DNA of 60,042 nt from a virus. This document shows positions 16,478-60,042 of the stretch, in pieces. The stretch covers positions 1 to 60,042 of the IMG/VR virus record IMGVR_UViG_3300036715_002143; one strand, given 5' to 3'. Positions within the stretch are counted from its first letter, which is position 1, and each line of letters starts with the position of its first letter. The translations under genes and the position numbers were made by a program. The notes below the pieces were generated by a model. That model was not told the origin of the DNA, made no database searches, and worked only from the letters and a program-made list of their open reading frames with translations.

Positions 16478-16746
16478 GCTCGCTTGTCGTCGTCAGCATC
16501 GCGTGCGAGGCCGACCGGGCCTCGTTCGTGGTGCGCGCGGCGGAGACGCATCCGCAGGCGGTGCGCCCGATCTTCGACGAGCAGATCCGACGCGCGTCCG
16601 TCGCGCTCGATCTCTGCCACCTCGAGGCCTACCCGGACCGCGTGCGCGAGCGTGAAGCCGCGACCAGCTGGCTCGAGCACTGCCGCGAGGCGCGCGAGGC
16701 GATGACCTGGGACGCGTGGTGCGTGAGGAAAGGGATTCGACCGTGA
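16474..16746 (+). CDS. Small protein of unknown function in the lysis region
   Basis: The 90-residue protein has a beta-alpha start (SSLVVVSIACEADRASFVVRAA) and a helical, charged remainder ending in WDAWCVRKGIRP. No signal peptide or membrane segment is present. It is coupled to both neighbours by GTGA overlaps. I do not recognise the family. Confidence 0.6.
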   Translation: MSSLVVVSIACEADRASFVVRAAETHPQAVRPIFDEQIRRASVALDLCHLEAYPDRVREREAATSWLEHCREAREAMTWDAWCVRKGIRP

Positions 16747-17711
16747 GCATCACGAAGCATCCCGGGCGCCTCGGCGTCGACATCTCCTCGCTCCAGGGCG
16801 AGATCGACTTCGCGAAGCTCGCCGCCTGGCGCTCGCCCGACGGTCGCCGCATCGAGTTCGTGATCGCGCGCGCCTGCAACGGCACCGTCCGCGACTCCCG
16901 GCACCGCGAGTACCGCCAGGCTGCGAAGGCGAACGGGCTCCTCTTCGGCAGCTATGGCGTGCTCTACCCCGCGGGCGATGCGGTCGCGCAGGCCGACACG
17001 TTCCTCGACGTGGTCGGCGTCGTCGAGCCCGACGAGCTTCCCCCGATGCTGGATCTTGAGGTCGAGGACGGGATTCCTGGCGGCGATGGCGAGCACCGCG
17101 CGGGCCTCGCCTGGGTCGAGCGCGTCGAGGACGTCACGGGCCGGCGCTGCCTGGTCTACACCGGCTGGGGCTTCTGGAAAGCGATCGACGATCGCGCCGA
17201 GTCGCCGCTCGCCGACCGGCCCCTCGTCGTCGCCCACTACACTGACGGCGACAAGCCGCTGATGCCGCGCGCGTGGCACGCGTGGACGATCCACCAGTAC
17301 AGCGGCAACGGCGGCGAGCGCGTGGCCGGCTGCCTCGTCGACATCGACCGAGACGTCGCGCACCCGAGCGTCGGCCTGCTCGAGATCATCGCCGCGTCGA
17401 AGCTCCACGAGGCGCACCCGCGCCCGTGGATGCCGAGCGTCCACGAGCTCCAGGCGCGTCTTGGCGTCGATGCCGATGGCGTGTGGGGGCCGAAGTCGAA
17501 CGCCGCGCTGCGTGCCTACCAGACGGCGCAGGGGCTGCCCCCGACCGGCATCGTCGGCCCGCGCACGATCGCGCTGCTCTTCCCCGAGCACGTCGCGCCC
17601 ACCGAGCCCCCGCCGACGCTCCCGAGCCTCGAGCCTCCCCGGGCGCCCGCCGAGACCGCCCCGCTCACCGAGGCCGAGCGCGACGCGCGCGAGCTCGAGG
17701 GGGTCCCGTGA
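16743..17711 (+). CDS. Endolysin: GH25 muramidase with peptidoglycan-binding domain
   Basis: The 322-residue protein carries a glycoside-hydrolase family 25 lysozyme domain (residues about 8-215). It starts LGVDISSLQG with catalytic-site Asp13, and includes the LDLEVED strand with Asp104 and Glu106. Conserved YTGWGFWK and WTIHQYSG segments follow. Residues about 230-285 form a peptidoglycan-binding domain (LQARLGVDADGVWGPKSNAALRAYQ in pieces). A Pro-rich tail closes the chain. There is no signal peptide, so release depends on a holin. It cleaves the MurNAc-GlcNAc bond. Confidence 0.9.
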   Translation: MSITKHPGRLGVDISSLQGEIDFAKLAAWRSPDGRRIEFVIARACNGTVRDSRHREYRQAAKANGLLFGSYGVLYPAGDAVAQADTFLDVVGVVEPDELPPMLDLEVEDGIPGGDGEHRAGLAWVERVEDVTGRRCLVYTGWGFWKAIDDRAESPLADRPLVVAHYTDGDKPLMPRAWHAWTIHQYSGNGGERVAGCLVDIDRDVAHPSVGLLEIIAASKLHEAHPRPWMPSVHELQARLGVDADGVWGPKSNAALRAYQTAQGLPPTGIVGPRTIALLFPEHVAPTEPPPTLPSLEPPRAPAETAPLTEAERDARELEGVP

Positions 17712-17907: not shown

Positions 17908-18057
17908 ATGGAGCTGCTCGCCTCCCTCGCCTGCCTCTCGATCGGAGGCGTCGCCGCCCACGCGCTGCTGATCGCTAGCGAGGCACGCGACTCGGTGCGC
18001 ATCTCTCGCCGCCGCATGAAGCGGCACTGGAGCACTCCGCCGTGCCGCTCGAAGTAA
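17908..18057 (+). CDS. Small single-span membrane protein, lysis region
   Basis: The 49-residue protein has one hydrophobic segment (residues 3-22) followed by a very basic tail with several Arg and Lys. The ATG at 17908 or the GTG at 17902 (overlapping the previous stop) could be used. Its 3' end overlaps the next gene by 16 bases in another frame, an arrangement typical of lysis gene pairs. Confidence 0.55.
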   Translation: MELLASLACLSIGGVAAHALLIASEARDSVRISRRRMKRHWSTPPCRSK

Positions 18058-18317
18058 CCCCCGCCCTGCTCGGCCTCGCGGTGACGGCGTGCACCATCCT
18101 CGTCGGCTCGGCGGTCCAGGTCGTGCTCGCAGCGCGCGACGCCCGGGACGCCGCGTCCGAGGTCAAGGCGCACGCCGAGACGCTCATCGCGATCCGGGTC
18201 GCGCAGGGGCGGCACGAAGAGCGGCTCGACGCGCACGAGGACGAGATCGGCAGAGTGCGCACGGGCGTCGAGGCGAACGCGACGGCGCTCGCGCGGCTCG
18301 TGGGCACGAAGAAGTAG
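18042..18317 (+). CDS. Membrane-anchored coiled-coil protein (holin- or spanin-like)
   Basis: The 91-residue protein has an N-terminal membrane span (residues about 8-29). A long charged helix with heptad spacing follows (DAASEVKAHAETLIAIR, HEERLDAHEDEIGRV). This resembles XhlA-type lysis proteins or inner-membrane spanins. It is the last gene of the late operon. GTG start lies inside the previous gene. Confidence 0.6.
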   Translation: MPLEVTPALLGLAVTACTILVGSAVQVVLAARDARDAASEVKAHAETLIAIRVAQGRHEERLDAHEDEIGRVRTGVEANATALARLVGTKK

Positions 18318-18318
18318 C

Positions 18319-18360
18319 GTCGTCCATCGCGACCTGAAGCCCGACAACATCACGAACGAG
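18319..18360 (+). other. Orphan fragment coding for a Ser/Thr kinase catalytic loop; possible attachment core
   Basis: Read in frame from 18319, these bases encode VVHRDLKPDNI followed by TNE. This is an exact catalytic-loop (subdomain VIb) signature of Hanks-type Ser/Thr kinases. Nothing else of a kinase is present, and the fragment starts right after the last late-gene stop. A nine-residue core match is far beyond chance, so I read it as DNA shared with a host kinase gene. It could be an attP core or a recombination scar. No integrase was found to decide between them. Confidence 0.55.
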
Positions 18361-18362
18361 AA

Positions 18363-18405
18363 CGCCGCCTGCCCTCACGGGTCGGCGGCGCTTCGTCGTT
18401 TTGTG
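18363..18405. terminator. Intrinsic terminator between converging operons
   Basis: A hairpin pairs CGCCGCC (18363-18369) with GGCGGCG (18384-18390), with inner CCC/GGG pairs. CTTCGTCGTTTTG follows. It lies between the last rightward late gene and the end of the leftward early operon, so it can serve the late operon. The T tract is imperfect. Confidence 0.55.
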
Positions 18406-18929
18406 GCGTCACTTCGTCGCGGCGTCGTAGCGGGCGAGGGCGACGGAAACGTCGCGCCACGGCATCCGGTCGTAGTGCCCGTCGGCGCGATCTCCCGCGT
18501 GCTCGTCGCAGTGCGCCCACATGACGTCCCACCACTCGCCGACCTTGTGTCGCACTCGGACCGTGATGCCGTCAGCCATCGCTGGCCCCCCTTCCCCGCC
18601 TTCGCCTGCGCGGCCGCATCCCACGCATCGAGCCGCGCGCGCTCCGCTTGCAGCAGCCGACCGACCTCCGCCGAGCTGGCGTTGCTCGCGGCGATCCACG
18701 CCTTGTGCGCCTCGGTGTCGGCCTTGGTCGCCGCGTCCCACCGAGCCATCGCGCGCTGGTACGCGTCCCATGCCTTGCTCGCGGCGTCGCTCGTCGCGTG
18801 GCTCTTGCGAAGCGCGGCCAGTTCGGCGCGAAAGAGCGCCGCGACCTTCGTCTCTCCGCGTTCGTCCGCGAACCTCGCGTGCCGCAAGAGATCGCCGATG
18901 CGCTCTGCACGCTTGTCGTCGTCCCGCAT
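18375..18929 (-). CDS. Helical protein of unknown function, end of left operon
   Basis: The frame starting at 18929 has a strong GGAGGCGG ribosome site. It encodes a helical, Ala/Arg/Asp-rich protein; residues 1-115 look genuine (RIGDLLRHARFADERGETKV then AWDAYQRAMARWDAATKA). After that the frame runs with poor composition into the terminator hairpin before its first stop, while the alternative frame encodes a plausible small protein. Possible explanations are a programmed -1 shift at GGGGGGC (18591-18585), which would give a 173-residue fusion, or simple overlap. Confidence 0.5.
   Translation of the reverse strand: MRDDDKRAERIGDLLRHARFADERGETKVAALFRAELAALRKSHATSDAASKAWDAYQRAMARWDAATKADTEAHKAWIAASNASSAEVGRLLQAERARLDAWDAAAQAKAGKGGQRWLTASRSECDTRSASGGTSCGRTATSTREIAPTGTTTGCRGATFPSPSPATTPRRSDATKRRSAADP
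18409..18579 (-). CDS. Small protein overlapping the end of the upstream gene
   Basis: The 56-residue protein (ITVRVRHKVGEWWDVMW near its start, ending VALARYDAATK) has normal protein composition, with Trp and His residues. Its ATG has an AAGGGGGG ribosome site about 6 bases upstream. It is nested in the 3' part of the previous gene in the -1 frame. It may be separate or the C-terminus of a frameshift product. Function unknown. Confidence 0.55.
   Translation of the reverse strand: MADGITVRVRHKVGEWWDVMWAHCDEHAGDRADGHYDRMPWRDVSVALARYDAATK
18585..18591 (-). promoter_or_regulatory. Possible -1 frameshift site GGGGGGC
   Basis: On the minus strand the heptamer reads G_GGG_GGC in the frame of the upstream gene, which fits the X_XXY_YYZ slippery pattern. 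A -1 shift joins residue 115 of the upstream protein to the frame of the 56-residue protein. The same G run also serves as a ribosome site for that protein, so separate translation is an equally good reading. Confidence 0.35.
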
Positions 18930-27830: not shown

Positions 27831-28541
27831 ATGCCCCGGAAAAACAACGTCCGCGGGGCACGTGACGGGCCTACGGCTCGTGGCGAGCCTTGGTTGGTGA
27901 CCATCAAGCTCGACGACGCCGAAGCCTTCGCGCAGCGAAACCTCCGCATCGCAGCCCTCGACGGGCACGACTCGCCGCCCTGGCGCATCGCGCTCGCGCG
28001 GCTTGGGGTGCGGTTCGCGACGTTCGGCGCGCGTTCGCCGATCTACGCGCGCTCAGGCGTCGGCACGCACGGCACCATCAACGGCGCGCCGGTCGTCTAC
28101 GTCTACGACGGCATGTGCGACCGGGACACAGCGCTCACTGCGTGGCACGAGCACGGCCACCACATGATCTTTGCCGAGGGTCTCGTGCTGACGTGCCACG
28201 CCGAGGCGTTCTGCACGCGGTATGCGGCGGCGATGCTGGCTCCCGCCGACTCGATGCGCCGCGCATGGCAGCAGACACGCGACCTGCTCGAGCTCCACGC
28301 GCTCCGGCCCGCGACGTCGGCGAGCGTTCTGCTGCTGCGGCTCGGCGATCTCGAGCTGGCGCCGGTCGCGCTCTACGACCGCAAGGGGCCGCGACGCGCG
28401 ATTCCTGCGCAAACGATGCCGCGCGGCGTGGGTTGCTTGGTCGACCTCGCGCGCCGCGGGGGATTCGCCGAGAACGAGAACGGTCGCGCGTGGCGCCTGC
28501 TCGACGACGCCGCTCGTGTCGGCGTTGTGCTCGCGGCGTAG
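27831..28541 (+). CDS. ImmA/IrrE-family metallopeptidase
   Basis: The 236-residue protein has the zinc site WHEHGHHMIF (HExxH form, near residue 104). A downstream helix HAEAFCTRYAAAMLAP supplies the third ligand region (Glu) and the family's AA.LLAP motif. Residues before it form the usual strand pair (GAPVVYVYDG). ImmA-type peptidases inactivate phage or ICE repressors. Lying beside a CI-like gene, it may cleave that repressor. Its start is 11 bases after the operator region. Confidence 0.8.
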   Translation: MPRKNNVRGARDGPTARGEPWLVTIKLDDAEAFAQRNLRIAALDGHDSPPWRIALARLGVRFATFGARSPIYARSGVGTHGTINGAPVVYVYDGMCDRDTALTAWHEHGHHMIFAEGLVLTCHAEAFCTRYAAAMLAPADSMRRAWQQTRDLLELHALRPATSASVLLLRLGDLELAPVALYDRKGPRRAIPAQTMPRGVGCLVDLARRGGFAENENGRAWRLLDDAARVGVVLAA

Positions 28542-28550
28542 AATCTCGCG

Positions 28551-29024
28551 ATGACGAATCAGCAGCCGCAGCCCGCCCCAGCGAAGCCGTCCATGCCGTG
28601 GTGGCAATACCCGATCGCCGTGATCGGCGGCCTTGCGATCGCTGGCGCGATCTACGCGTCCGTCGACAAGAAACGCCCCGAGACGGCGGCGGCGATGCCG
28701 GCCGAAGATCCGCGCGCGGGGGCCCCGATCCTGCCGCTGGTCGAGATCGTCGGCCTCGCGGACGCCGAGGACGAAGCGAAGTTCAACCGGACGTGGCGAG
28801 GCAAGTTCGTCGGCGTCGCCGGCACCGTGACCAGAGTGCTGCAGCAAAACGGCGGCTACGCGACGGTTACGATCGAAGACGGCGCGCGCGTCGAGGCGCG
28901 GTGCGTGATCGGGCCTCCGCGCAACTCCGGCGCCGCGGCCGAGGGGAAACGGGTCACGATCGTTGGTCGCGCCGATCAACTCTCGGCGGTCGCGCTCATG
29001 CTTCGGGACTGCGAGGTCCGCTAG
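28551..29024 (+). CDS. Membrane-anchored OB-fold protein
   Basis: The 157-residue protein has one membrane span (residues about 19-41) after a Pro-rich cytoplasmic start. A linker and a C-terminal OB-fold domain follow (WRGKFVGVAGTVTRVLQ, ARVEARCVIG, GKRVTIVGRADQL). This resembles the tRNA_anti-like family found in bacterial and prophage membrane proteins. It is transcribed with the ImmA-like gene toward CI and overlaps the CI 3' end by 4 bases. It may be expressed in lysogens; an exclusion role is a guess. Confidence 0.65.
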   Translation: MTNQQPQPAPAKPSMPWWQYPIAVIGGLAIAGAIYASVDKKRPETAAAMPAEDPRAGAPILPLVEIVGLADAEDEAKFNRTWRGKFVGVAGTVTRVLQQNGGYATVTIEDGARVEARCVIGPPRNSGAAAEGKRVTIVGRADQLSAVALMLRDCEVR

Positions 29025-29548
29025 CGTTTCGGGGCGTCGGGGTCGACTGGGTCGGCGTGGACCGTTGTTGTGTCGAGCTGGACGTCGGGCTCTGGCAGTC
29101 GCCCGCGCTTGTCGTCCTCGATCACTGCGAGCAGCGCCTTCGTCTGCTCTTCCAGATCGAGCTTCGGGATCTTCCCGTGATGGGTGTAGCGATCCTCGTA
29201 GTGCTCGAAGGCGTATCGCGCGCGCGGTGACGCTCGCAGGTAGAGCGCGGTGCGGCGCACCTGTTCCTTGGGGTCAAGCGCCGGCTCGTCCTCGCTCGGC
29301 TCGACCACGCGCAGACGCACCTTGCCAGTCAGGCGCTCGGCCGTCGTTCCGTACGTCGTTGCGAGGATCGCGAGCGCGTCATCGGGCACCGGCGCGCCAC
29401 GCTCCCAGCGGCTGACGGTGATCACGTCGCGGTGCACGACTGCGCCGATCTCCTTCTGCGTCTTGCCGATGGCCTCGCGAGCGGCCTTCAACCGCGCGCC
29501 GCGCGCCTTATCGAGCCTCATGGTCGCCATGGCGTCGAGACTAGGCAT
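29021..29548 (-). CDS. CI-like transcriptional repressor (XRE HTH)
   Basis: The 175-residue protein has an XRE helix-turn-helix (residues about 17-70: LKAAREAIGKTQKEIGAVV, VITVSRWERG). The variable C-terminal domain is rich in charged residues. It lacks the LexA/CI Ser-Lys autoprotease motif, so induction may instead use the ImmA-like peptidase. The start ATG at 29548 follows GGGGTGAG and lies inside an operator copy (GACTAGGCAT), suggesting autoregulation. Internal ATGs at 29530 and 29521 are alternatives. Confidence 0.8.
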   Translation of the reverse strand: MPSLDAMATMRLDKARGARLKAAREAIGKTQKEIGAVVHRDVITVSRWERGAPVPDDALAILATTYGTTAERLTGKVRLRVVEPSEDEPALDPKEQVRRTALYLRASPRARYAFEHYEDRYTHHGKIPKLDLEEQTKALLAVIEDDKRGRLPEPDVQLDTTTVHADPVDPDAPKR

Positions 29549-29633
29549 CAGCTCACCCCGAGAAAAGAAGGCTCAACACGAGAGGTCTTGACTAGGCGTC
29601 GCGGCAAGCGCAACTTACTAGGCATGGCTAGTC
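29539..29633. promoter_or_regulatory. Operator copies between CI and Cro genes
   Basis: Copies of the switch operator lie at 29539-29548 (GACTAGGCAT), 29590-29599 (GACTAGGCGT) and 29616-29625 (TACTAGGCAT). An inverted GCTAGTC lies at 29627-29633. They overlap the CI start codon, the -35 of the Cro promoter and the Cro start codon. CTAG is rare in GC-rich DNA, so this clustering is unlikely to be chance. Confidence 0.6.
29588..29616 (+). promoter_or_regulatory. Rightward early promoter (Cro promoter)
   Basis: TTGACT (29588-29593) and CAACTT (29611-29616) are 17 bases apart. Transcription starting about 7 bases later would begin at or just before the Cro ATG at 29624. No ribosome site precedes that ATG, so the first message may be leaderless. 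The -35 sits inside an operator copy. Confidence 0.5.
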
Positions 29634-29866
29634 GAAAAGGACGCCGGTCGCACCGGAAGGTTGCGCCACCTCGGTGGAACGAGCTGGAGAAGGCCCGCGT
29701 CGGGGCGGGCATGACCCAGAAGGCGCTGGGTGAACTGCTTGGCGTAGACGCGCTCACCGTGTCGCGCTGGGAGCGCGGGACGACGACGCCCAACAAGTTC
29801 GTGCGACCGAAGCTCGACGCCTGCTTCCCTGGGCTCGTGTCGCCGCGCGAAGCGAAGGCGGCATGA
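29624..29866 (+). CDS. Cro-like transcriptional regulator (XRE HTH)
   Basis: The 80-residue protein has a basic N-terminal arm and an XRE helix-turn-helix (ARVGAGMTQKALGELLGV, LTVSRWERGTTTP). Its recognition segment is close to that of the CI-like protein (TVSRWERG in both), which fits both binding the same operators. It is divergent from CI and starts the right early operon. An upstream extension is open but lacks a ribosome site. Confidence 0.75.
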   Translation: MASRKGRRSHRKVAPPRWNELEKARVGAGMTQKALGELLGVDALTVSRWERGTTTPNKFVRPKLDACFPGLVSPREAKAA

Positions 29867-41646: not shown

Positions 41647-41972
41647 CCGCGCCTGCCCGCTGCGTCGTCTGCCGCCGGCCCTTGCACGATCGCGCGTCGA
41701 TCGCTGAGGGCGCGGGACCCGTCTGCGCGGTGCGGCGCGCGCAGGTTCCGCTCGAGCTCGACGCGGCGGCCGACGCTCCCGCGCCGAGCGAGCCGGCCAC
41801 CGACTACGCGGCGACCGACTTCGACGACTGGCCGTGGGTCCGCGCGTGCCGAGAGGACGCGGCGGCGCGCGGCGTCGCGTGCCGGCCGGGCTGCCCGGGA
41901 GAGACGTACGGCCGGTGCGCGCGGTGCGCCGGCGAGCAGGAGCGCGCAGCGCAGAAGGCGGCGAGAGCATGA
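41643..41972 (+). CDS. Zinc-binding early protein
   Basis: The 109-residue protein has CVVCRRPLHD at the N-terminus with Cys28 nearby, and CRPGCPGETYGRCARC at the C-terminus. This suggests two zinc sites joined by an acidic linker. ATG overlaps the previous stop. Function unknown. Confidence 0.6.
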   Translation: MTAPARCVVCRRPLHDRASIAEGAGPVCAVRRAQVPLELDAAADAPAPSEPATDYAATDFDDWPWVRACREDAAARGVACRPGCPGETYGRCARCAGEQERAAQKAARA

Positions 41973-42406
41973 CCAGCGCGCGAGAAGCGGCGGCCGCGAG
42001 CGAGGCCGCCCGAGATCGATGCCGTCACGGCCTGCTGCTGTCGTCGGCGCACCGGCCGGCCGACGAGTGCCGCGAGTGCGTGACGGCCGACGTGTCCGTC
42101 CTGGCGTACCAGGCAGTGCGCCCGGGCCCGACGCTCGACGAGGTCGGCGCAATGTTCGGCGTCACCCGCGAGCGCGTCCGGCAGATCGAGGCGGTCGCGC
42201 TGCGCAAGCTCGGTCCCCGGCTCGCCGCCGCGCTGGGGATCACCGACGCCGATCGCGGCGAGATCCTGTCAGACGCCGAGCGGCGCGATCGCGTCGTCGC
42301 TCGGATGCGCCGCGACGGGATGACCAAGGACGAGATCACCGACGCGATCGGGAGCGATGAGCGCGCCCGCGCCGTGGGCAACGCCAGGGAGAGGAACGCC
42401 ACATGA
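41969..42406 (+). CDS. Sigma-70 region-4-like DNA-binding protein
   Basis: The 145-residue protein has a textbook sigma region 4.2 helix-turn-helix (residues about 55-78): TLDEVGAMFGVTRERVRQIE followed by AVALRKLG. Region 2 is absent. A small Cys/His cluster precedes it. Such orphan region-4 proteins can redirect host RNA polymerase. It lies near the end of the early operon, just before the late genes, so a late-switch role is reasonable inference. Confidence 0.7.
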   Translation: MTSAREAAAASEAARDRCRHGLLLSSAHRPADECRECVTADVSVLAYQAVRPGPTLDEVGAMFGVTRERVRQIEAVALRKLGPRLAAALGITDADRGEILSDAERRDRVVARMRRDGMTKDEITDAIGSDERARAVGNARERNAT

Positions 42407-43347
42407 GCCGCCGCGCCACGCTAGAGATCGTTGAAGCCCACGACGTGCCCGCCTCGCCGCTCGCCGAGTGGATGGCCGACGAGGACGCGCGCCTTGATGC
42501 CCGCGCGGACGAGCAGAGCGAAGCGCGCGCGCTCTTCGAGCAGGTCGGCGCCGCCGCCGAGGACGTCGACGCCTTCCTCGTCGAGGGCGTGCTCAAGCCG
42601 CTCGCGGCGTTCGGGAAGGGCCTGCTCAAGCCGAAGCCGAAGCGAGACCCCGACGTCAGGTGGCCGAACGAGGTCGCGGCGCTGCGTGCCTGGTGGCAAG
42701 TCCGCGACACGTCCAGGCGTTCGCCGACCGCGAGGCTCGCCGTGCATTGCGAGACGGGCGGCACGTTCACCGCGGCGTCCCGCCCCGCCGAGCCGCGCAT
42801 GGACGACGGCGTGATCCATGTCGCCCGCGCGCTCGCGAAGGTGAGCGCCGAAGCCCTCGCGTGGACCGTCTCGGCCTGCATCGAGCTGCGGCCCCCCCGC
42901 GCGCGCACTGAGGGCGGCGAGCTGCGCAACAGCCGTGGCAACGGCTTCGGCGGCGAGAGCGTGGGCAGCGCGCAGTCCATCGCCGCGACGGCGCGCGAGA
43001 CGGGCGACAACACGGAGACGTGGCAGCGGCTCGTCGCCGAAGCGCACGGCCTCGAGCAGGACGAGGCGACGCTCGAGCGCATCGACGCCGCCGTGAAGGG
43101 GGCGAAGCGCGCGCTCCGGGCGGCGCTCCGGGCGGTGGAGCTCGACACGCGGCCCCGCTGGCTCATCCCGCCGGCGACCAGGCGCGAGCTCGAGCGGGAC
43201 GTAGCGCCCGAGGTCGTCGCGACATGCACCGGCGCCGTCATCGTCGATGGCCTTCGCGGCGAGTGCGGGGAAGGCCAGGCGCTCGCGGCCGACGTCGCGG
43301 CGTCACCGCGGTGCGAGCGGTGCGGGAAGCCGTGGGGGGCGAGATGA
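42403..43347 (+). CDS. Large early protein with C-terminal zinc pair, unknown function
   Basis: The 314-residue protein has an acidic helical N-terminus and a central domain (DTSRRSPTARLAVHCETGG, VIHVARALAKVSAEALAW). The C-terminus ends in CERCGKPW, half of a zinc ribbon. ATGs overlap neighbours on both sides. The family is not recognised. Confidence 0.6.
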   Translation: MSRRATLEIVEAHDVPASPLAEWMADEDARLDARADEQSEARALFEQVGAAAEDVDAFLVEGVLKPLAAFGKGLLKPKPKRDPDVRWPNEVAALRAWWQVRDTSRRSPTARLAVHCETGGTFTAASRPAEPRMDDGVIHVARALAKVSAEALAWTVSACIELRPPRARTEGGELRNSRGNGFGGESVGSAQSIAATARETGDNTETWQRLVAEAHGLEQDEATLERIDAAVKGAKRALRAALRAVELDTRPRWLIPPATRRELERDVAPEVVATCTGAVIVDGLRGECGEGQALAADVAASPRCERCGKPWGAR

Positions 43348-44303: not shown

Positions 44304-44336
44304 CGGCTCGGACTTCGGTCCGGGCCGTTCGTCTTT
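44304..44336 (+). terminator. Strong intrinsic terminator of the right early operon
   Basis: CGGCTCGGAC (44304-44313) pairs with GTCCGGGCCG (44318-44327) through ten positions (one G-T wobble) around a TTCG tetraloop. TTCGTCTTT follows. This is a highly stable hairpin with a T-rich tail. It lies after the last early gene and overlaps the 3' end of the opposing HTH gene. Confidence 0.8.
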
Positions 44337-44595
44337 AACCGGCCGGATGTAGCGGCAATTCGAGCTGCGCGCGACGCATGACCAGCGTCGGCCGGGGCCG
44401 CTGCGCCCACGCGAGCAGCTCGTGCTCGTACGCGACGATCATCCTGCGGCCCCACAGAAATACCGGCAGGCCTGCGGCGTCCGCCCACCGGCGCGCCGTC
44501 GTCTGGTCCACGCCGAGCACGGCGGCGACGCCTTTCCAGCCGAAAACGTTGGGGCGCGTGGTGCGCGTCACGGTCGTAGTCGTCGGCTCGGCCAT
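44335..44595 (-). CDS. Excisionase/MerR-like HTH protein at the early/late boundary
   Basis: The 86-residue protein has a winged HTH of the AlpA/excisionase type (VFGWKGVAAVLGVDQTTARRW then GLPVFLWGRRMIVAYEHEL). ATG at 44595 has a GGGAGGTGG ribosome site. It is the only reverse-strand gene for many kilobases and is divergent from the packaging genes. It may repress or activate late transcription, or act as an excisionase, although no integrase is seen. Confidence 0.7.
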   Translation of the reverse strand: MAEPTTTTVTRTTRPNVFGWKGVAAVLGVDQTTARRWADAAGLPVFLWGRRMIVAYEHELLAWAQRPRPTLVMRRAQLELPLHPAG

Positions 44596-58067: not shown

Positions 58068-60042
58068 GTGGCGCAGCCCGTTCGGATTCTGTTCGTCACG
58101 GAGGGCGTCGACCGCGTCACCGAGGCGTTCCGCACCGTCGAGCAGGCTGCACGCCGCACGCAGTCGAGCGTCAGCGCGCAGCTCGGCAAGCAGGCGCAGG
58201 CGACGCGCTCGAGCGCGCAGGCCACCGTGCAGGCGCACGCGTCGGCCGAGCGCGCGAAGACCTCGAACGTCGACAAGGAAGCGTCGAAGCGCGAAGCCGC
58301 GGAGAAGCGCGAGGCCGACAAGTCGAACGCGTACTGGCGCAAGGCGCACCAGAAGCGTCTCGACGAGAATGCGCGCGCGGACGCGAAGGCTGCGCAGGAC
58401 GCGAAGCGCGCGGCCGACAAGCTCGCGAACGCGAAGAAGCACAACCCGAACGCCACGGGCATCGAGGGGCTCTCCAAGAAGGAAGCCGTCTCGATGCTCT
58501 TCGGGTCCTCGAGCGCTGGCATGGCCAGCCTCGGCGGCATCGGCATGGCGATCGGCGGGGCGATGGCGCTCAAGTCGGCGCTCTCGCTCGCGGCCAACGC
58601 CCTGACGCAGTTCGGCGGCTTCGTGATCAACGAGGTACTGCGCCCCGCGCTCGCGGCCAAGAAGGGCGCGGCCCAAATGGCGAACACCGGCGCGGGCAGC
58701 GCGGCCGGCATCTACGCCGACTCGCGCGCGATGGCGCTGGCGCACGGCGTGGGCGTCGACAAGGCGCAGGCGGCGATGGGCGCGGCGTACGAGAAGACGC
58801 GCGACTACGGCTCGGCCAAGTCGGTCGCGGGCCTCGCGCTCTCGCAGGCGCGCGCGTACGGCATCGACGACGTCGGCGGGCTCACGTCGCACCTGGCGAC
58901 GATGCGCACGCAGCTCCACGGCATGAAGGATTCGGAGTTCGCGGCGTTCGCGAGCACGCTCGTCGGGCAGTCGAAGACGGGCGGACTCTCGCTCGCGACG
59001 CAGGCGGCGCTCGGCGGTACGACCTCGGACATCGCACGCTCGTTCACCGGCGGCTCGGCCGGCCTCGACGCCCGCAACATCGCAGGCGTGCAGGGCATCG
59101 TCGGCATGTCGGCGCAGAGCACCGGCGACGCCCAGAAGTCAGCCGCGGGCCTCGCGTCGCTCGTCGAGCTCGCGAAGACCATGCGCGTCGGCCTCGACAC
59201 CGAGGGGCGCGTGAAGGACGTGAACGCGCTCGTTCCGGCGATGATCGAGAAGCTCGGTGGCAGTGCAGCGGCGATGAACAAGCGCGGCGTGGGAGCCGAC
59301 ACGATCGACTTCCTCCGCCCGTTCATGGACAAGATGAAGAACGGCGGGGCCACCGGCCTGATCGCTTCCATCGCATCCGCCGGCACCGACGCGAAGGCGA
59401 CGGCCGGCATCACCGGCAAGGACGAGGCGACGGTCGCGCAGACGACGCAGGAGCGCCTCGATGGCGCGATCGAGCGGCTCAAAGAGAAGCTCGTCACGCT
59501 GCTCCCCGCATTCGAGCACGTGATCGGTGCGTTCACCGACAATGCGCCCGCGTTCGAGGCCGTGGTCGACAACGCTCTGATTCCCTTCGGCGTCGCCCTC
59601 GGAGACGTCGTCGCGTTTACGATCAACAACCTGCAGCCCGGCATGGAGCTCCTGTCGGGGCTCTTCGAGGTTCTGGCCGGCGCGACGCGCGTGGCGGTGC
59701 TCCCGCTCACCATCCTGCCCGGCGTCATCCTCAAGGCGATGGCGATGCTCGTCGATCTCGTGCCGCAGTCGCTCCAGACCGAGGGCATGCAATCGTTCGT
59801 CGCGGGCGCGAACAAGTACGGCGACCTCGCGTTCGGAAGCGGCTCGCTCGACCAGATGCTCGGGGGCGCCGACAAGGCCGCGAGCGCGCTCGCGAACCTG
59901 AAGGTCGACCGCGGCGCCACCGCCGTCGCGAACCCGTTCTCCTCGAGCTACCACCACGGCGCGACACCCGCGAACGGCAACGGCGGCGCCGGAGCGCTCC
60001 CCGGCTCGCTCGGCTGGACGTTCGGCGGTGGCGGACAGGGCG
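58068..60042 (+). CDS. Tail tape measure protein (5' part; continues at 1-344)
   Basis: The protein starts with GTG at 58068. It has an N-terminal strand, a long charged Ala/Lys coiled coil (residues about 25-125), a Gly/Ala hydrophobic segment (about 148-190) that resembles membrane-inserting tape-measure segments, and a further hydrophobic region (about 540-570). The rest is Ala/Gly helix. The window ends inside the gene; across the circle it totals about 702 residues. It sets tail length and guides DNA ejection. Confidence 0.88.
   Translation, partial: MAQPVRILFVTEGVDRVTEAFRTVEQAARRTQSSVSAQLGKQAQATRSSAQATVQAHASAERAKTSNVDKEASKREAAEKREADKSNAYWRKAHQKRLDENARADAKAAQDAKRAADKLANAKKHNPNATGIEGLSKKEAVSMLFGSSSAGMASLGGIGMAIGGAMALKSALSLAANALTQFGGFVINEVLRPALAAKKGAAQMANTGAGSAAGIYADSRAMALAHGVGVDKAQAAMGAAYEKTRDYGSAKSVAGLALSQARAYGIDDVGGLTSHLATMRTQLHGMKDSEFAAFASTLVGQSKTGGLSLATQAALGGTTSDIARSFTGGSAGLDARNIAGVQGIVGMSAQSTGDAQKSAAGLASLVELAKTMRVGLDTEGRVKDVNALVPAMIEKLGGSAAAMNKRGVGADTIDFLRPFMDKMKNGGATGLIASIASAGTDAKATAGITGKDEATVAQTTQERLDGAIERLKEKLVTLLPAFEHVIGAFTDNAPAFEAVVDNALIPFGVALGDVVAFTINNLQPGMELLSGLFEVLAGATRVAVLPLTILPGVILKAMAMLVDLVPQSLQTEGMQSFVAGANKYGDLAFGSGSLDQMLGGADKAASALANLKVDRGATAVANPFSSSYHHGATPANGNGGAGALPGSLGWTFGGGGQG
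59833..60042. repeat. Terminal redundancy with window start (circular closure)
   Basis: Bases 59833-59959 are identical to 1-127. Thereafter 59960-60042 diverge from 128 onward by substitutions and one extra codon, while keeping the tape-measure frame. This means the sequence closes into a circle and that the two ends come from two alleles of the same gene. The tape measure should therefore be counted once. Confidence 0.9.

Follow-up and report, generated by a model that had tools for sequence, protein, structure and literature searches.

An orphan kinase catalytic-loop block in a phage late-operon spacer and its recurrence among GC-rich phages

The main finding of this study is that the window, i.e. 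the whole 60,042-nt IMG/VR virus contig of a soil-type phage (70.6% GC), bears a 33-nt block whose sequence is that of the catalytic loop (subdomain VIb) of bacterial protein-kinase genes. The block lies in a non-coding spacer, is isolated from any other kinase sequence, is not explained by chance, is absent from the nearest complete relative of the phage and recurs, in the form of orphan fragments, in other GC-rich phages. As to its origin, we give about even chances to the block being a short piece of a Ser/Thr-kinase gene of the host, captured by recombination into a permissive 3' untranslated spacer. Both that it arrived by capture and that it serves no present function in this phage we infer.

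The block and its surroundings

The original prediction placed an intergenic VVHRDLKPDNI in one reading frame, and this was confirmed by translation of positions 18319-18351 of the plus strand (GTCGTCCATCGCGACCTGAAGCCCGACAACATC). It had assigned 42 bases to the block (18319-18360, plus strand, translated as VVHRDLKPDNITNE); the first 33 nt are kinase-identical, but the last 9 nt form the 5' side of a terminator hairpin. The block starts one base past the TAG stop codon (18315-18317) of a 91-aa ORF and reaches up to this strong hairpin. The ORF (18042-18317, plus strand) is a small late gene with one TM-like segment and a holin/spanin-like position, having a homologue (43% over 75 aa) in the nearest complete relative, G003, and it is preceded by an endolysin gene with a peptidoglycan-binding region (16743-17711, plus strand). 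On the other side, the first ORF of the converging minus-strand operon (18409-18579) gave no family match. Folding indicates that the late operon ends with an intrinsic terminator at about 18351-18400 (plus strand), composed of a long stem and a U-rich tail; for 18318-18405 the MFE was -38 kcal/mol (z -3.1), with the block mostly unpaired just before the terminator. Thus, the predicted non-coding position beside a terminator is correct, and the end of the late operon is a plausible place for an attachment site. As in intrinsic (Rho-independent) late-operon terminators in general, the hairpin and the U-rich tail follow immediately downstream, in a position conserved in G003; what differs here is the block inserted between the stop codon and the hairpin.

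The Pkinase profile (PF00069) matched the window solely at the block, over 13 residues and with 10.3 bits, the cut-off being 31.7. No ORF with a full Pkinase catalytic domain was found at the block and no kinase lobes nearby, and a six-frame search with a profile built from 55 phage-contig kinases detected no other kinase pieces within 2.5 kb, in agreement with the isolation claimed originally. A truncated or frameshifted phage kinase gene is ruled out for the window by this absence of kinase lobes within 2.5 kb. Extension of the C-terminus of the upstream gene by a kinase fragment is likewise ruled out, since the frame of the block differs from that of the 91-aa ORF and lacks a start codon. 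The same loop region is present in phage genomes bearing Ser/Thr kinases, such as Stk of 933W-type phages and the PaV-LD kinase; however, those are complete genes, whereas here there are 11 residues' worth of sequence, out of frame and with no start.

Among GTDB representative genomes, the exact 33-mer occurred once, as part of a genuine kinase gene in a MAG of the Planctomycetaceae, and near matches of 33-38 nt were present in plasmid-borne kinases; an exact 30-mer of the block was found in no other viral contig. Searches for known structured RNAs (Rfam, 0 matches at the gathering threshold) and for tRNA gave no match. Two direct repeats of 10-15 nt, found in 18150-18520 in a check for arm-type repeats, were chance-like.

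The phage encodes a RecT-like annealing protein, an exonuclease, DnaB, a RuvC-like resolvase and a CI/Cro-like repressor pair. The region 27897-29866 contains an ImmA/IrrE-like HEHGH protein (assigned by reading of the sequence, with no NCBIfam or Pfam match), a CI-like repressor and a divergent Cro-like HTH protein, the last being 96% identical in G003. This region looks like a temperate switch without a detectable integrase, and the CI/Cro-like pair suggests a temperate phage. Neither tyrosine (PF00589) nor serine (PF00239) recombinases were matched at E<=1 in the phage (G000) or in G003. The distant relatives G011 and G008 carry PF00589 tyrosine integrases, and tblastn with these proteins revealed nothing convincing. 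An imperfect end repeat of about 205 nt (1-205 and 59833-60042; 127 nt exact, then a few changes) would fit either variant ends or a genome that is complete and circularly permuted. Elsewhere in the window, we noted a small protein bearing a domain similar to sigma-70 region 4 (41969-42406), a 314-aa protein with no family match (42403-43347) that is 80% identical in G003, most of its neighbours being at 40-70%, and an HTH_17 (excisionase-like) protein (44335-44595, minus strand), alone on its strand, conserved in G003 (57%) and with no recombinase nearby.

G003 (59,975 nt, TerL 70% identical) is devoid of the block at the syntenic place, where both the gene and the terminator are kept: the 91-aa homologue is followed directly by its own hairpin with a T-run tail. 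Hence either a lineage-specific insertion in our phage or a loss in G003 may be assumed, the comparison being with one relative. This conserved order of gene and terminator also bears on the question of whether an assembly or library artefact placed a conserved kinase k-mer in the contig, an explanation that draws on the metagenomic source of the contig and on the loop being a repeated k-mer in soil samples. We consider it highly improbable, as not only the shared gene-terminator order, but also the non-kinase sequence on both sides of the block, which is not expected of a k-mer chimera through a repeat, and the finding of like fragments in contigs of many samples, with in-frame examples in L150 and L153, speak against it.

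Recurrence of orphan kinase fragments

More interesting than the block of the window alone is the recurring set of orphan fragments. When 2.9 million viral contigs were scanned with degenerate patterns, HRDLKP[DE]N was found at 24 loci and VHRDxKPxN[ILVFM] at 68, and a codon-reversed control of the former at none. The majority of these matches represented real kinases. Orphan fragments were present in 15 contigs (L057, L064, L069, L072, L076, L078, L141, L143, L150, L153, L156, L158, L167, L175 and L201), and the orphan-bearing contigs all have 61-74% GC and belong to unrelated phages. L147 is doubtful as a carrier, L056 (a genuine but frameshifted kinase) and L065 (a match inside an HNH-like protein) were left out of the count, and L180 and L062 contain longer partial kinase pieces. 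Chance would yield about 0.3 and 0.15 orphans for the two patterns, or about 0.5 together, as extrapolated to some 12 Gb of GC-rich contigs with Markov rates calibrated on nine chance matches of the ABC control described below. Moreover, nine of the ten short fragments that match the second pattern have I or V at position -2, a residue which this pattern leaves free, and the tenth, that of L147, has L. The excess over chance expectation, the empty control and the residues at position -2 together indicate that the fragments are derived from kinases.

For the window itself, Markov models predicted 3-4e-7 occurrences of HRDLKP[DE]N and 1.5-5e-8 of [IV]VHRDxKPxN[ILV]. A chance resemblance, in favour of which there is nothing but the very large number of sequences read, is ruled out by these expectations and by the codon-reversed control, and the preference for I or V at position -2 is equally at odds with it; we regard its probability as negligible, in accordance with the original view of chance as very unlikely.

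The fragments vary in length from about 30 to 220 nt (L180 about 222, L057 78-174, L175 132, L167 99 and the others about 30-66), and many of them end near the same 11-residue core, [IV]VHRDxKPxN[ILV]. They are located directly after stop codons (the window, L069, L072, L076 and L141), before start codons (L076 and L201) or in frame, in linkers and at gene ends (L150, L153, L158 and L175). About 15 of 16 overall, and 9 of the 10 intergenic ones, are in the sense orientation relative to the flanking genes. In L201, a TAG stands at a variable codon of the block; therefore, any role would be exerted at the level of DNA or RNA. The block of L076 (CCACCGCGACCTCAAGCCGGAGAAC, 350-375 as oriented) fills the entire gap between a TAG stop codon and the ATG of a DnaB-like gene, for which it would supply the ribosome-binding site (GGAG). 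In L153, IVHRDIKPDNI is read in frame within the linker of an endolysin-like protein.

The sense-strand bias and the near-constant core would be in line with an element acting through homology or at the RNA level, kept since the phage would profit from its being identical to kinase genes or mRNAs present in number in the host. Such an element might provide a short homology patch for RecT/exonuclease-assisted recombination in a temperate phage with no integrase, or an unpaired 3'UTR acting on kinase RNA; the RecT-like protein and the exonuclease, encoded where an integrase was not detected, and the mostly unpaired state of the block before the terminator fit these two variants. However, G003 has no block despite the same lifestyle genes, and gene content differs among the other carriers, which makes this possibility quite improbable in our opinion.

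A control with an ABC motif, GGQQQRVA, gave 9 non-ABC matches, none of which extended into LSGGQQQRVAIAR. As a test of random host fragments this result is not decisive, its weight depending on the copy number of the motif in the hosts.

Recombinases in the vicinity of the block

It was originally proposed that the block is the core of attP, in which crossing over by a site-specific recombinase would integrate the phage DNA into the catalytic-loop region of host kinase genes. A length of 33 nt, as is typical of recombination cores, the location at the end of the late operon with a terminator adjoining, and the CI/Cro-like pair, suggestive of a temperate phage, are all in favour of this proposal, as is the stop codon in the L201 block. 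The pieces of host genes contained in the attP sites of phages (with tRNA, dusA and similar targets) resemble the block in being short conserved stretches of a host gene, non-coding and beside a terminator; they differ in that here neither a recombinase nor a host junction was detected, and in that the target would be the catalytic loop in the middle of a gene of a multicopy family. For this phage the proposal was not supported, given the unmatched PF00589 and PF00239, the missing block of G003 and the failure to find a junction with a host kinase gene. Among about 90 kinase-bearing viral loci, none showed a kinase gene split at subdomain VIb by phage DNA, no close integrated relative of the phage was present in 392 genomes of one phylum, and a literature search for kinase-gene attB sites found nothing. 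Phages Mx8 and Mx9 of Myxococcus are comparable as phages of kinase-rich bacteria that integrate, a Myxococcota host being only a guess in our case. The attP of Mx8 is located within the int gene, and both phages have two attB sites each in the chromosome, for which a kinase gene is not mentioned (PMC6070905). An int gene is present in Mx8, but none was found in our phage.

Other carriers of the block provide evidence of a different kind. In 4 of the 8 recombinase-bearing contigs, the block is within 1.7 kb of a recombinase gene (0.65 expected, P ~0.003, with approximate gene spans and a threshold set after the distances had been seen); in L150, L153, L201 and L076 a distance of 15-45 kb separates block and recombinase, which argues against an attachment site. 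L064 and L141 share a module consisting of the orphan block, a spacer, a small serine recombinase and a sigma-like gene. The block precedes the recombinase by 357 and 323 nt, respectively, and is alike at 31 of 39 nt in the two phages, in the same place amid otherwise unalignable non-coding DNA. The recombinases themselves, of about 220 aa and 51% identical, resemble the catalytic domains of CcrB, XisF and IS607. The G207 prophage encodes a related enzyme, with 44-47% identity to the L141 and L064 recombinases, and a block-like sequence, EVHRDLKPHKFM, lies 104 nt upstream of its gene. No other integrated element was found in which a related recombinase adjoins a block-like sequence. The G207 prophage was rejected as an integrated relative proving the attP function, and indeed counts against it, as the sequence lies within the prophage and the prophage itself is inserted elsewhere than in a kinase gene.

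Block-bearing contigs have diverse integrases, which do not constitute one clade, and therefore no single integrase explains the set; a clade common to all carriers was looked for and not found. Taken together, an attP core is an unlikely identity for the block of the window. A role as a recombination site in other block-carrying phages, namely in a subset of the carriers, has some support and is a live possibility.

Capture of a host fragment and its implications

According to the capture reading, which we prefer, a catalytic-loop fragment of a host kinase gene would be transferred into the phage genome when phage and host DNA recombine. It would then be kept in the 3' untranslated spacer between the last stop codon of the late operon and the terminator, where an insertion may cost nothing. 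Such a fragment would be visible to us because conservation is highest at the loop in this gene family, which may number hundreds of copies in kinase-rich bacteria. Sorangium has 317-508 such kinases (PMC3696898), and thus offers a large target for capture. The spread of fragment lengths, and the presence of fragments in GC-rich phages unrelated to one another, be it in spacers, linkers or gene ends, count for this mechanism, as do the absence of the block from G003 and the diversity of the integrases. What counts against it are the ending of many fragments near a common 11-residue core, which passive capture does not predict, the sense-strand bias, the retention of the block in L064 and L141 despite 51% identity of their recombinases, and the lack of comparable captured fragments in the ABC-motif control, a result whose weight depends on host copy number.

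A bolder reading is that the codons of the kinase catalytic loop would be a selected DNA or RNA element, carried repeatedly by phages of kinase-rich, GC-rich bacteria as a kinome-wide, multi-copy recombination target. Small serine recombinases might act on it in phages of the L064/L141 type, and host or Red-type recombination in those without an integrase, such as ours. We find this bolder proposal possible, though doubtful.

Selected blocks would make kinase catalytic loops a new, conserved, multi-copy target for integration or recombination, and would account for how phages with no recognisable integrase might be maintained in kinase-rich bacteria. Passive ones would allow the frequency with which phages acquire pieces of host genes to be estimated by counting. 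With about 16 contigs in the set, the question can be tested in either case.
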